The notes below the pieces were generated by a model. The model was given only the letters and a program-made list of their open reading frames with translations. It ran no database searches and was not told where the DNA came from. A stretch of DNA of 61,318 nt from Sulfurimonas sp. GTDB taxonomy: Bacteria > Campylobacterota > Campylobacteria > Campylobacterales > Sulfurimonadaceae. The DNA is taken from assembly GCF_018698455.1 (NCBI RefSeq), contig NZ_JABIOQ010000022.1:1-61318 (forward strand). Reading direction: 5' to 3'. Below, piece after piece: positions 23,033-27,406 of the stretch (positions are counted from its first letter, which is position 1; every line of letters starts with the position of its first letter). A program made the position numbers and the translations under genes.

Positions 23033-24034
23033 CTAGTGCCTTGGTTTTGTGACAACTTTTAAAGTTGTAAAATGTTTATTATCTAAAAATTCCATAAGTT
23101 CATCAAAGTTTTTATATTTTTCTTCATTTACAAGTTCTGAATCTGCATAAGCATAACTATCAAAATGAATCTTTTTTGTAGAATGTATTGCAACATATAA
23201 GTCATAAGTCTCGACCCCACTCTCTATAAGTCCAGCCTCAGCAATCGATTCAAAATCTTCATCGGGAATATTTTGCATTTTGTTTTTATCTATTTTAATA
23301 TTTCGCACAAGAGTCGAAACTGTTCCATCTTCATAAACCGTAAGTATAGAGATATAACCACTCTTAGTTGCGTTCACTTTAAAATAAAATTTATCACCCT
23401 CATAAAGTATGTTATTTCTCTTGTTTGTATTTAACTCAAGTCCTGCATTTGAAACTGAACTGAAAAACTTTTTGAAATCTTTTTTATCTAAGACCTGTAG
23501 TATATTTTCATACTTTATAAACCACTTTGTATCTTTTCTAACAAGTGCGAACTCTATCTCTTTATGTAACTCTCTTTTAAGTAAACTTGCCATCTCTGAG
23601 TGTTTAAGATAACTATTGCTCACACCATTTTTCTCTTTTAAAAAGAACTTACTTCTTTTCACTTTTCTTATAAACTTATCAATCGATGGAATGTTTTCAT
23701 ACGAAAGTGATACATAATACTTACCATCACTATATTCTGATTTTAGTAGTTTATAGTCTTGTATCGAAGATTTTGCTCTTTGCATAGTACTTTTCTCACT
23801 CACATCACTCAGATTTCCATTATCATCTTTGATGTGACTAGAAAACCTAGTATCTACTTCTACAGATATTTGAGAAGCTATGTCACTCAAAGCTTCATGT
23901 TTTGCTGCGACTTCACTCTTTGCACTTCCAAAACCAACATAAGAACTAGGGGTTTTTTGTTCTATGTTATGGTACCAAGTAGGTGCTGCGTTTAACAGAG
24001 ATACGAGCAGTAAAATGAGTGCTAGATTTTTCAT
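23033..24034 (-). CDS. Secreted LPP20-like / DUF4384 protein
   Basis: 333 residues with a signal peptide (MKNLALILLLVSLLNA). Residues about 17-115 resemble the LPP20 domain (PTWYHNIEQ...YVGFGSAKSEVAAKHEALSDIASQI), known from Helicobacter lipoprotein Lpp20 and flagellar relatives, but there is no lipobox Cys. Residues about 205-290 match the DUF4384 pattern (YEGDKFYFKVNATKSGYISILTVYEDGTV). DUF4384 often accompanies caspase-like proteases, and here the gene begins at the base after the caspase stop, so the two products probably work together in the periplasm. Function unknown. Confidence 0.75.
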   Translation of the reverse strand: MKNLALILLLVSLLNAAPTWYHNIEQKTPSSYVGFGSAKSEVAAKHEALSDIASQISVEVDTRFSSHIKDDNGNLSDVSEKSTMQRAKSSIQDYKLLKSEYSDGKYYVSLSYENIPSIDKFIRKVKRSKFFLKEKNGVSNSYLKHSEMASLLKRELHKEIEFALVRKDTKWFIKYENILQVLDKKDFKKFFSSVSNAGLELNTNKRNNILYEGDKFYFKVNATKSGYISILTVYEDGTVSTLVRNIKIDKNKMQNIPDEDFESIAEAGLIESGVETYDLYVAIHSTKKIHFDSYAYADSELVNEEKYKNFDELMEFLDNKHFTTLKVVTKPRH

Positions 24035-25843
24035 CTAAAGACTCAACCTAAAGTTACCATCAACAGTAGGCTCTTGCGTTCTACTATCACCATATTCTTG
24101 CATCGAAGCATCATATGTTTGTGCTTTAGTATCTTTAAATAGTGTCTTAATATCACTATCTCCCTTGATAATATTTTTCATCAAGTAAAAACTAAAGAGT
24201 CTATGCCCTTTTTTATCATAACCATTTGAGTACTGGTTTGCTTTTCCTGCACTCATAACTACCATTTTTTCTTTGTCAAACTTAACAGATTTTGCTACCA
24301 TTTTAGTAGCTGCTACACCTTTTAGTACTGACTTTGCATCTGTCACACCAGAGAAACAACTATCGACAAACGCAACAACTTTACTTGCTTTGGACTCACT
24401 CAGTTTTGCATAGATGTTTTTGAGACTAAAAAATGACTCATCTGCTATGTAATCTGGTTCAGAGTTTGAAGCCAGCATAAAAGGTTCGTTTTTTAGACTC
24501 GGTACGGGGATACCATGACCGTTGTAGTAAAAGTAAATAGTGTCACCTTTCTTAACTCGTCTAAGCATCTTTCTCATTTTTGTTTTTATCTCTGCTTGTG
24601 TTGCATTGTCATTTAGTAGTACATATGAGTTGCGTTTGGGAACACCAAGTCTTTTTTGAGAAGTTTTAGCGAACATTTTTGCACTTCTTGTTGCATAGCT
24701 AATGTTGTCTGTGTACTCGTACTTTTCTATTCCCACTACGAACAGCCATTTTTTATTATTTGTTTTTACTTGTTTTGATTTTTTAAGAAGATTGTCGAGT
24801 TCAGCATAGTTTCTCAAACCACTAGCATCGAAACTACCAACTGCGTTTGCAGCTATAGATATTTTAGTATCTACGGAGTTATCAAGTTTTAAGTCGTCAT
24901 TTTTTATGTTCACTGCAACTCTTGTCTCAGCTATATTTAGGTCAGTAAAAAGTGCTGCATAAGTTTTACTCTTGTAGGGAATGCGAATATCTTTAAGCAC
25001 TATGTTCTTCCCATCAAAGTCAAAAACTGCCTGAGGCTTCAAAGAAGAAAACTCATTTTTAAAAGCTCTTGCATCTTTTCTTTGGACTTTTATAGCTACT
25101 TTTTTTTGAAAACTTTTTTTTGCTTCAAAGCTTATTTTTGCCACAAAGTAGCCATTGTCTGCGTCATATTGAAGGTTCGAGAGAAGAGGTTTTCCCCAAG
25201 TCATTTCAAGAGCTTTTTTTATCGAATTCTCTTTCGCTTTTGCTTGGGAAGAAGCATATTTCTTTTTGTATTTTACTATCTCTCTTTTTTGAGAAGCTTT
25301 TGTTTTTTTAACTCTTGCATTAAACTCAGTTGTACTTTCAAACTCATCCCTTATAAGACTAAGTTCACTTGGTGGTTTTGGGATGTTTTTTAACTCTTTT
25401 TCTATTAAGGTTGATATTAAATTTTCAAAGTTCAAAGTATCAGATTGTCCTGCCCTAGCACACCTGACATAATACTCATATGCCTTATTGCCGCCGTTGG
25501 AATTGCCACCCTTAAAGTCTACACCCCAAGCACCCTCAGAACGTGAAACAACCGACGAAGAAGACCAATAAAAACTAGAAGTACTGTTGTTAAATTCTTT
25601 CTTTATGGATGGATTATATTTACTTTTATCAGTAATGGTTAGGAGTTGCTCATGACTTGGTAAAAACCAATCTTCATGCCCATTGAGTTTTAAATCTTTA
25701 CAGTAGTTTTTAGCACCATTCCAGTCTTTTTTTACATTTTTAGCATCATAGTTATCTTGCCACATAAGGTTTGTTTTCTTATCTACGACTACATTTGCTA
25801 CACTTAGACTAAAACCTATCATAATCAAAAGGATTGTTTTCAT
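24035..25843 (-). CDS. Secreted caspase-like protease with N-terminal DUF1566 (Lcl) domain
   Basis: 602 residues with a signal peptide (about 1-17). Residues about 18-133 form a DUF1566/Lcl (C-type-lectin-like) domain (KTNLMWQD, HEDWFLPS, FYWSSSS, YYVRCARAGQ). A helical, Lys-rich stretch follows (about 140-215), then a beta-rich region, then a C14/metacaspase-type domain at about 364-600. The catalytic dyad is visible as His443 in YYNGHGIP and Cys496 in FVDSCFSG. Predicted to be periplasmic or surface exposed. Residues 92-133 coincide with a putative DGR variable region (see 25444-25573). It starts a pair with the DUF4384 gene; a GGAG Shine-Dalgarno precedes the ATG. Confidence 0.85.
   Translation of the reverse strand: MKTILLIMIGFSLSVANVVVDKKTNLMWQDNYDAKNVKKDWNGAKNYCKDLKLNGHEDWFLPSHEQLLTITDKSKYNPSIKKEFNNSTSSFYWSSSSVVSRSEGAWGVDFKGGNSNGGNKAYEYYVRCARAGQSDTLNFENLISTLIEKELKNIPKPPSELSLIRDEFESTTEFNARVKKTKASQKREIVKYKKKYASSQAKAKENSIKKALEMTWGKPLLSNLQYDADNGYFVAKISFEAKKSFQKKVAIKVQRKDARAFKNEFSSLKPQAVFDFDGKNIVLKDIRIPYKSKTYAALFTDLNIAETRVAVNIKNDDLKLDNSVDTKISIAANAVGSFDASGLRNYAELDNLLKKSKQVKTNNKKWLFVVGIEKYEYTDNISYATRSAKMFAKTSQKRLGVPKRNSYVLLNDNATQAEIKTKMRKMLRRVKKGDTIYFYYNGHGIPVPSLKNEPFMLASNSEPDYIADESFFSLKNIYAKLSESKASKVVAFVDSCFSGVTDAKSVLKGVAATKMVAKSVKFDKEKMVVMSAGKANQYSNGYDKKGHRLFSFYLMKNIIKGDSDIKTLFKDTKAQTYDASMQEYGDSRTQEPTVDGNFRLSL
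25444..25573 (-). repeat. Putative DGR variable region VR1 (in caspase gene)
   Basis: Bases 25444-25479 are identical to 26004-26039 (36 bases, encoding most of EYYVRCARAGQ). The adjoining 94 columns (25480-25573) align without gaps to 26040-26133 but differ at 28 positions. Eleven codons differ at both positions 1 and 2 with the third base (C or T) conserved, which is the pattern left by adenine mutagenesis of AAY codons in a DGR template. The constant anchor would correspond to the initiation-of-mutagenic-homology end. No template copy was found in this window. Confidence 0.7.
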
Positions 25844-25864
25844 TTATATCTCCTACACTGTTTT

Positions 25865-25978
25865 TTAATTTAACACTATTGTATACTTCTCATACTTCCC
25901 AAAAGACTTCACTATAGTTTCAATATATACATTAAAATCTAAGGTACTTTTATAGATTGGTAAGTTGTCATACTGCAT
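25865..25978 (-). pseudogene. Truncated avd-like DGR accessory gene
   Basis: An open frame of 37 codons starting at the ATG at 25978 with a GAGG Shine-Dalgarno eight bases upstream. The product begins MQYDNLPIYKSTLDFNVYIE and continues TIVKSFGKYEKYTI, which matches the first helix-turn-helix of Avd/four-helix-bundle proteins (usual form LPIYK..L.L...IE.....F.KY.KYTLG). The frame then ends after three unrelated residues, where Avd proteins normally run on for some 80-90 more. It lies just behind the DUF1566 gene, the usual variable-protein-then-avd order, and its 3' part seems deleted up to the leader of the caspase gene. Confidence 0.6.
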
Positions 25979-26001
25979 CTTAAAACCTCAAATTTTCAAA
26001 T

Positions 26002-26484
26002 TTATTGTCCTGCCCTAGCACACCTGACATAATACTCATTCGTCTTATTGAAGTTGCCGGAAAAGCCAGACTGAAAGAGTACATTCCAAGCATTCTTAGA
26101 ATCTGAAACACTTGACGAAGAAGACCAATAACCACTAGAAGTAACATTCTTAAACCCATCTTTTATAGCTGGATTAACCTTTGTAGTATCTGCTAGAGTT
26201 TCTAACTCTTTTATGCTTGGCAGATGCCAATCAGAGTATCCTGCAAGGGTTAAGTTTTCACAATATCCTTTTGCATCTTGCCAATTTTTCTTTACACTTT
26301 TTACAGCACTATTATCTTGCCACATTAAACCTGTAACATTATTTACTACAAGCTCTTTAGCATCATTTCTTGTAAAGGTATCACCCCATTTAGCTCTTGG
26401 TGCCTCACTCGTTTTGTCTATAACTATCTCGTATGAGAATAGTGTTGTTAGTAGCAGTGTTGTTAGTAGTAGTTTTTTTATCAT
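26002..26484 (-). CDS. Secreted DUF1566 (Lcl) protein, putative DGR variable protein
   Basis: 160 residues with a signal peptide (MIKKLLLTTLLLTTLFS). The whole mature part is one DUF1566 domain: NNVTGLMWQD, YSDWHLPSIKEL, GYWSSSSS, AWNVLFQSG, and the C-terminal NEYYVRCARAGQ followed by the stop. DUF1566 proteins with a variable C-terminus are common targets of diversity-generating retroelements. The last 43 residues correspond to the putative VR2, paralogous to residues 91-133 of the caspase gene product. A ParE-type toxin gene ends two bases upstream. Confidence 0.8.
   Translation of the reverse strand: MIKKLLLTTLLLTTLFSYEIVIDKTSEAPRAKWGDTFTRNDAKELVVNNVTGLMWQDNSAVKSVKKNWQDAKGYCENLTLAGYSDWHLPSIKELETLADTTKVNPAIKDGFKNVTSSGYWSSSSSVSDSKNAWNVLFQSGFSGNFNKTNEYYVRCARAGQ
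26004..26133 (-). repeat. Putative DGR variable region VR2 (3' end of DUF1566 gene)
   Basis: Partner of 25444-25573. The 36-base anchor lies at the very 3' end of the gene, the standard place for a DGR variable region. Differences from VR1 include GGC/TTC, GGC/AAC, AAC/GGC, AAT/TTT, GGT/TCT, GAC/CTC, GGT/AAT (twice), CGT/GAT, GTT/AGT and TTT/GGT codon pairs (VR1/VR2). At 19 of 28 differing positions one copy has A on the coding strand; at the other nine neither copy has A, which mutagenesis of both copies would allow. Confidence 0.7.
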
Positions 26485-26485
26485 T

Positions 26486-26779
26486 TTATTTCTCTTCTTG
26501 AAGTGGTAGATTTTTATGAAATATTTCTAAAATCTCTACAATTTTTTCATCTTCTTTTATTTTATAGATTATTGTATAAGCTTTAAAAGTCATATCTCGA
26601 ATTGTTTCATTTTCATAATAGTTTGATTGTCGGTATTTATAAGGAAAATTAACTAAGTTATTTATCTGTTTATCTAAATCTTTTTTAAATTTAACAGCAG
26701 CACTTACTTTATCTTGTGCTATATAATTTAAACTATGTTGAAGTGTCAGAATAAAATATTTTGTTCTAACTATTAGCAT
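26486..26779 (-). CDS. ParE/RelE-superfamily toxin
   Basis: 97 residues of the compact RelE/ParE fold: HSLNYIAQDKVSAAVKFKKDLDKQINNLVNFPYKYRQS followed by IRDMTFKAYTIIYKIKEDEKIVEILEIFH, the pattern of ParE toxins (R-x-x-x-F-x-x-Y-x-I-x-Y). It overlaps the upstream antitoxin gene by 14 bases, as is typical of type II toxin-antitoxin pairs. Whether the target is gyrase (ParE) or ribosome-bound mRNA (RelE) cannot be told from sequence. Confidence 0.8.
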   Translation of the reverse strand: MLIVRTKYFILTLQHSLNYIAQDKVSAAVKFKKDLDKQINNLVNFPYKYRQSNYYENETIRDMTFKAYTIIYKIKEDEKIVEILEIFHKNLPLQEEK

Positions 26780-27038
26780 ATTTTAATTCTAAGTCTTGCA
26801 TAAAAGAGTCCATCTCCTTATCATACTCATCTTGCTCATACATCTTCATACTGCCATCATCAACAGCGGCTATAGTTTTGTCAAGATGTGCTTTTCTTTC
26901 ATAGAAGTAAGGGTCATACTCTAGGTTTGGGTCTTTTTGTAGTTCTATTTTTTCAAGCATTATATCTTTCACACTTCCTAACAAATCTAAAATATTTTGA
27001 GTGTAACCATCTTTTACCTGTAGTTGTATAGTCTGCAT
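26766..27038 (-). CDS. Antitoxin of the ParE-type pair
   Basis: 90 residues starting MQTIQLQVKDGYTQNILDLL, with acidic C-terminal half (YDKEMDSFMQDLELKYANS) likely to wrap the toxin. I set the start at the ATG at 27038 because it has AGAAGGA just upstream and because the neighbouring antitoxin at 27633 begins almost identically (MQTITLQ). The open frame extends 28 codons further upstream, but that part is a decayed copy of the nadC 3' end in another context. Confidence 0.75.
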   Translation of the reverse strand: MQTIQLQVKDGYTQNILDLLGSVKDIMLEKIELQKDPNLEYDPYFYERKAHLDKTIAAVDDGSMKMYEQDEYDKEMDSFMQDLELKYANS

Positions 27039-27059
27039 ATCAAATCCTTCTCTATGTAC

Positions 27060-27109
27060 ATTATAGCATATAACAAATTTTAATCCATCTTCATAGACAA
27101 GTCTATCCA
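27060..27109 (-). repeat. Decayed copy of nadC 3' end
   Basis: Fifty bases that match 27651-27700 (the nadC stop region and its downstream leader) at 42 positions without gaps. The copy sits in front of the second toxin-antitoxin pair exactly as the true nadC end sits in front of the first. This suggests that a nadC-tail plus toxin-antitoxin unit was tandemly duplicated, or inserted next to nadC with target duplication, and has since diverged. Confidence 0.75.
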
Positions 27110-27127
27110 ACCTGCATTGCATCTACT

Positions 27128-27406
27128 CTAGTTTGAGCATACATTTAAGTATATATCTCCTCGATTGTTTGCATTAACCATAAGTATCACTAGTTCATCA
27201 TCTATGATTTCATATATAAACCTATAGTTATTTACTCTTAGTCTATAAAAGTCAGTATTTGAAAGTTTTTTTATATCTAAAAGTGAATTTGGGTAAGGAT
27301 TGTTTTTTAGCATTGATAGATTTGAATCTATATTTTTCTTATCTTGTTGGCTTCGTTTATTTATAAACTTGATAGACTTTTTGTTTAAGATAAGTTTATA
27401 TGACAT
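27128..27406 (-). CDS. RelE-family toxin
   Basis: 92 residues: SYKLILNKKSIKFINKRSQQDKKNIDSNLSMLKNNPYPNSLLDIKKLSNTDFYRLRVNNYRFIYEI is a clear RelE pattern, with the conserved basic YRLRVNNYR strand used to bind ribosome and mRNA. It overlaps the last base of the antitoxin gene. The family cleaves translated mRNA; this specific activity is inferred. Confidence 0.85.
   Translation of the reverse strand: MSYKLILNKKSIKFINKRSQQDKKNIDSNLSMLKNNPYPNSLLDIKKLSNTDFYRLRVNNYRFIYEIIDDELVILMVNANNRGDIYLNVCSN

Follow-up and report, generated by a model that had tools for sequence, protein, structure and literature searches.

Two Lcl_C genes of a Sulfurimonas genome as probable leftover targets of a diversity-generating retroelement

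DUF1566 (Lcl_C) is reported to be the commonest Pfam domain among the targets of diversity-generating retroelements (DGRs) (PMC6642488); the preliminary description of the present locus had named DUF1566/Lcl domains as known DGR targets. The closest described systems are the DUF1566/Lcl_C DGRs, in which an avd gene, a template repeat (TR) and a reverse transcriptase (RT) gene follow one another. The locus reported here, from a Sulfurimonas sp., resembles them in having Lcl_C targets with adenine-specific variable repeats (VRs) in AAY codons beside an identical 3′ anchor, and in having relatives whose RTs bear the motif IGNLTSQ and are accompanied by a bAvd-like gene and a TR. It is unlike them in that TR and RT appear to have been deleted, so that the target genes are left together with one end each of avd and RT.

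Leftover targets have been described before. In Treponema denticola, there are targets with differences at A sites in genomes which lack the core components, and losses have been repeated within the taxon (PMC4891356). Both features are found here as well, but here a physical scar (the start of avd joined to the end of RT) is present at the locus, and the junctions differ among species. DGR fragments of Nanoarchaeota (PMC4372165), cyanobacterial all3226 (PMC7517822) and degenerate loci of Thiohalocapsa (PMC10907252) also comprise VR-like regions without key machinery, and have been read as fossils, as remote targets or as variants fixed after the machinery was removed; for cyanobacteria, it has been proposed that the machinery was removed once a good variant had been selected (PMC7517822). 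The present locus is similar in what it lacks, but involves other targets and phyla and has remnants at the breakpoint in the genome itself. Orthocaspase or caspase-like domains on DGR targets are known from cyanobacteria and Thiohalocapsa (PMC7517822, PMC10907252). There, as on one contig of the present genome (C8, with a C14 caspase), a protease effector and a variable ligand-binding domain share one polypeptide; in contrast, the proteins described here are both predicted to be secreted and belong to Campylobacterales, with Lcl_C at the N-terminus in the 602-aa protein (target gene 2) and at the C-terminus in the C8 protein.

Leftover DGR targets are therefore already known, and what is new is the resolved, recurrent scar. 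A text search of the literature for DGRs together with Sulfurimonas returned nothing relevant. In the literature found, leftover targets were inferred and the way in which cassettes get lost is mostly undescribed; in this genus, the break can be followed at base level, with intact, half-decayed and fully scarred loci side by side. Because these states coexist, the genus allows a direct test of the DGR life cycle and of the proposal that the machinery is discarded after a good variant has been reached. Genome surveys that require an RT will overlook such diversified genes.

Variable repeats and their common template

The window, i.e., the whole stretch of DNA that was analysed (61,318 nucleotides, contig NZ_JABIOQ010000022.1 of assembly GCF_018698455.1), has two Lcl_C genes in tandem on the minus strand:

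24035..25843, minus strand: target gene 2, encoding a 602-aa protein with a signal peptide, an Lcl_C domain (PF07603, E 1.2e-25) with VR1, and a C-terminal caspase-like domain
25445..25579, minus strand: putative variable repeat 1 (VR1), 45 codons, within the N-terminal Lcl_C domain of the caspase-like protein; 3′ anchor 25444-25479
26002..26484, minus strand: target gene 1, encoding a predicted secreted 160-aa Lcl_C (DUF1566) protein (PF07603, E 2.4e-30) which carries VR2
26005..26139, minus strand: putative variable repeat 2 (VR2), 45 codons, at the C-terminal end of the Lcl_C protein of 160 aa; 3′ anchor 26004-26039

The Lcl_C domains of the two genes align without gaps, and their upstream part has drifted in the ordinary way. 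Bases 25444-25479 equal 26004-26039 exactly; of 130 ungapped columns, these 36 are identical and the next 94 include 28 differences. In 11 codons, positions 1 and 2 are both changed while the third base, C or T, is constant, and at 19 of the 28 differing columns one or other of the two copies has A. These counts were all given in the preliminary description and proved exact on recounting. The weight that it placed on the A-rich columns did not survive, as the share is ordinary (19/28 in the VRs versus 55/80 upstream, p=1.0) and was dropped as an uninformative statistic. Its argument that the pattern is unlike ordinary paralogue drift was borne out by codon position: VR1 and VR2 (the last 45 codons) differ at 26 sites in positions 1-2 and at two in position 3, whereas the 198 nt directly upstream in the same genes have 80 differences, 44 in positions 1-2 and 36 in position 3 (Fisher p=1.8e-4). 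A hairpin adjoining the VR ends was sought in the window and none was found.

A third copy of the anchor, for which a genome search next to an A-rich template had been proposed, is present on contig C8 (G000:C8:35452-35587); it belongs to a further VR, not to a template. The 477-aa product of its gene has a signal peptide and combines a C14 caspase domain (E 2.2e-39) with a C-terminal Lcl_C domain, besides a weak PEGA match. Comparison of the three copies gives 30 variable columns, and all 30 are compatible with A in a single common template, which extends to three copies what had been claimed for two. A is visible in at least one copy at 25 of these columns and the remaining five are silent on the point; at non-A sites, variation among the three VRs is 0/87. 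The differences are confined to template-A sites, mostly positions 1-2 of AAY codons, of which the inferred template has 13. Its peptide, SSNYWSSSSNVSNSKNAWNVNFKNGNSNNNNKTNEYYVRCARAGQ, closely matches that of the real TR of a relative, G008 (SNNYWSSTTNANNTSNAWNVNFNNGNTNNNNKTNSKYVRCVRGGE; DNA match E 7.6e-19). The 36-bp 3′ segment is invariant, and VR and TR versions can be distinguished by their ends: in five relatives (G008, G449, G302, G047, G417) the VR ends GGACAR and the TR ends GGAGAR, and all three VRs of the present genome end GGACAA (VR type). The scaffold domain, PF07603 Lcl_C, is present in all three targets, as judged by sequence rather than by fold.

Because the variable sites of the three copies all fit A, and because cassettes of the same genus (TR, avd and RT) carry closely matching template peptides, the identification of the regions within 25444-26133 as DGR VRs in Lcl_C/DUF1566 domains, put forward in the preliminary description, is supported and would extend to the C8 copy. 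Three things carry most weight here: the skew in codon position, the existence of a third copy and the agreement with real templates. A history without any retroelement, in which Lcl_C paralogues diverged in the ordinary way or under positive selection, would accord with how common such paralogues are in the genus and with the unremarkable share of A-containing columns, but it is scarcely credible in view of the skew relative to upstream sequence of the same genes, the invariance of the 87 non-A sites and the same AAY pattern in the real templates of relatives; those templates, together with the avd and RT remnants between the genes, refute it.

The space between the two target genes

In intact relatives, the order of the cassette is target gene, avd, TR, RT, target gene 2, and 1.7-2.0 kb lie between the target genes. 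In the window, this distance is 158 bp, and the region includes:

25809..25880, minus strand: RT remnant, the last ~22 codons (NSVKLKNSVGDINENNPFDYDRF and a stop; E 0.007, 68%)
25865..25978, minus strand: avd remnant, the first ~34 codons (MQYDNLPIYKSTLDFNVYIETIVKSFGKYEKYTI), followed by three further codons and a stop; it is 76% identical to avd from G378 (tblastn E 3e-12)
25876..25882, minus strand: putative deletion junction; AATAG is common to avd and RT of intact relatives at both break sites

The start of avd and the end of RT are adjacent in separate frames, with the strand and order seen in intact cassettes. Read in this way, 25809-25978 represents a deletion scar, at which ~1.6 kb would have been lost, possibly via the 5-bp short repeat AATAG. 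In intact and dead loci alike, the RT tail overlaps, in another frame, the ribosome site, start codon and signal peptide of target gene 2; probably, the tail was kept because it also encodes this ribosome site and signal peptide. Neither the scar nor the third VR had been noticed in the preliminary description.

The assembly (a MAG in 76 contigs, estimated 98.1% complete) has no match to PF00078 (RVT_1), to the RT protein of G008 or to a profile of eight DGR-RT sequences, and the inferred template matches the three VRs only. The absence of RT and template would follow from deletion of the cassette between the target genes. With the last ~22 codons of RT and the first ~34 codons of avd left, and no TR, the working DGR implied in the preliminary description is not supported for this genome; the search for a template and a DGR RT which it proposed succeeded only in relatives of the same genus.

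Very probably, the two genes in the window were targets of a DGR that has lost its core through a deletion. The ancestral order would have been target gene 1 (VR2), avd, TR, RT, target gene 2 (VR1). Errors at adenines would have entered as the RT copied the TR, and the resulting cDNA would have replaced the corresponding 3′ portion of the Lcl_C domain, both in the two genes alongside and in one on contig C8. A deletion of ~1.6 kb would then have joined avd codon ~34 to RT codon ~350, with loss of the TR and of most of avd and RT, so that the three VRs would now be frozen. Beyond what was observed directly (the VR pattern, the third VR, the scar, the absence of RT and TR from the assembly, the intact and dead relatives), this history takes A-specific retrohoming to have occurred in the ancestor, adopts a mechanism of deletion, and has no second cassette acting in trans.

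The lack of drift at the 87 non-A sites implies that homing ended very recently or continues in trans. The latter would mean that the local cassette is scarred and that a second DGR, absent from the assembly, still diversifies the three VRs. We regard this as improbable. Homing to a remote site did happen, given the VR on another contig; remote targets have been described in Treponema denticola (PMC4891356); and MAG assemblies break at DGR repeats, so that one in 76 contigs could miss a cassette. Nevertheless, RT and TR are absent from an assembly that is 98.1% complete, a deletion is visible between the target genes, where the cassette would be expected, and two complete, single-contig genomes (G078 and G398) likewise have VR pairs, that of G078 being clean, with no DGR RT and no TR. 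Considerably less likely again is an assembly chimera, in which the 158-bp junction would have been made from an intact cassette. TR/VR repeats do confuse assemblers, the assembly is a MAG, and in another genome (G064) the VRs coincide with N runs and a contig end; but the junction lies in unique avd/RT sequence outside the TR/VR repeat, with only ~5 bp shared, the missing 1.6 kb is found nowhere else in the assembly, and similar joins of avd start to RT end, with other break points, are present in G074 and G486. Deletion of the core remains the preferred reading.

Intact and decayed loci in the genus

The inferred template was searched against 135 genomes of the genus. Intact cassettes were found in G008, G449, G081 and G463; G302 has the template with a broken RT, and the locus of G498 is cut by a contig end. 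Matches to other kinds of RT in relatives were set aside by motif. In G047, which has the same gene order, the accessory protein is bAvd-like (E 1.3e-7, below the Pfam cut-off). Summed over 13 TR-VR comparisons in intact or partly intact relatives (G463 and G288 excluded), A is in the TR at 211/224 differences and in the VR at 0/224. In G064 (L159, L160), one VR lies in an N run and the second where a contig ends, which may reflect withheld sequence or the effect of VR variants on assembly. Viral contigs had no relative of the 160-aa target and no anchor match; a phage-like contig found by a degenerate template pattern, whose template and RT read as one ORF, was unrelated. A DGR RT 69% identical to that of G008 is present on a contig binned as Gracilibacteria (L220, JALUWO010000079.1), which may be a Campylobacterota contig placed in the wrong bin.

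Scars or decayed RTs are present in at least eight further species of the genus, versus four or five intact cassettes, a ratio biased by the poor assembly of intact DGRs. In G074, avd codon 31 is joined to RT from residue 338; in G486, avd extends to codon 27 and RT resumes at residue 319, with another ORF in between. Only the last ~50 RT residues are left in G451 and G469, about ten, in the overlap, in the complete genome G398, and a tail near the contig end in G458. RTs with internal deletions are found in G302, G455, G471 and a second locus of G486. Because the break points differ between species, they argue for separate loss events. Third-position differences without A, which serve as a rough clock, number 0 in the window genome, G486 and G078, 2 in G451, 3 in G471, 4 in G398 and 5 in G074, compared with 0-2 in intact loci. 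As the window genome has none, its DGR loss looks recent.

Palindromic REP/MITE-like sequences were seen by eye at the site of the lost RT core in G451 (L196:2640-2760) and G469 (L197), which suggests that repeats take part in some deletions. The ORF in the deleted cassette space of G486 (L198:2200-3120) resembles, by eye, 23S-rRNA-intervening-sequence proteins, an Avd-related family. Elsewhere in the present genome (G000:C58:13977-14910, L011) is a tandem Lcl_C pair, near-identical as far as the VR, from which point the copies differ at all codon positions, with an in-frame TGA in the second copy and degenerate RT-tail-like sequence at the gene starts; this is probably an older fossil target pair.

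Perhaps, DGR cassettes in this genus are repeatedly gained, used and excised between their target genes, so that diversified sensors, some of them caspase-fused, become fixed, the dual-coding RT tail preserving the second target; this broader scheme is offered tentatively, and we would not give it an even chance.

Target proteins and neighbouring genes

Each of the three Lcl_C targets is predicted to be secreted, on the basis of signal peptides recognised by eye, and two are fused to caspase-like domains. In the 602-aa protein, the motifs of the putative catalytic His-Cys dyad, YYNGHG and DSCFSG, vary little or not at all among 10 homologues, and His443 and Cys496 are invariant. A profile of its family matches metacaspase-9 structures (E 8.5e-6), and its Pfam hit, Raptor_N, is below the cut-off; both are matches of sequence. 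The targets are likely to act as variable ligand-binding sensors coupled to a protease. In the complete genome G398, the orthologous Lcl-caspase gene (L158:9114-10930) is frameshifted in the caspase part. Downstream of target gene 2 is:

23033..24034, minus strand: LPP20/DUF4384 lipoprotein gene, adjoining target gene 2 and syntenic with the caspase-like gene in G398 and G064

This gene is a neighbour, and membership of the DGR is not implied. On the other side, adjoining the DGR locus, are ParE-like toxin genes at 26486-26779 and 27128-27406; the ORF between them (26766-27122, 118 aa) lacks any Pfam match and might encode an antitoxin.
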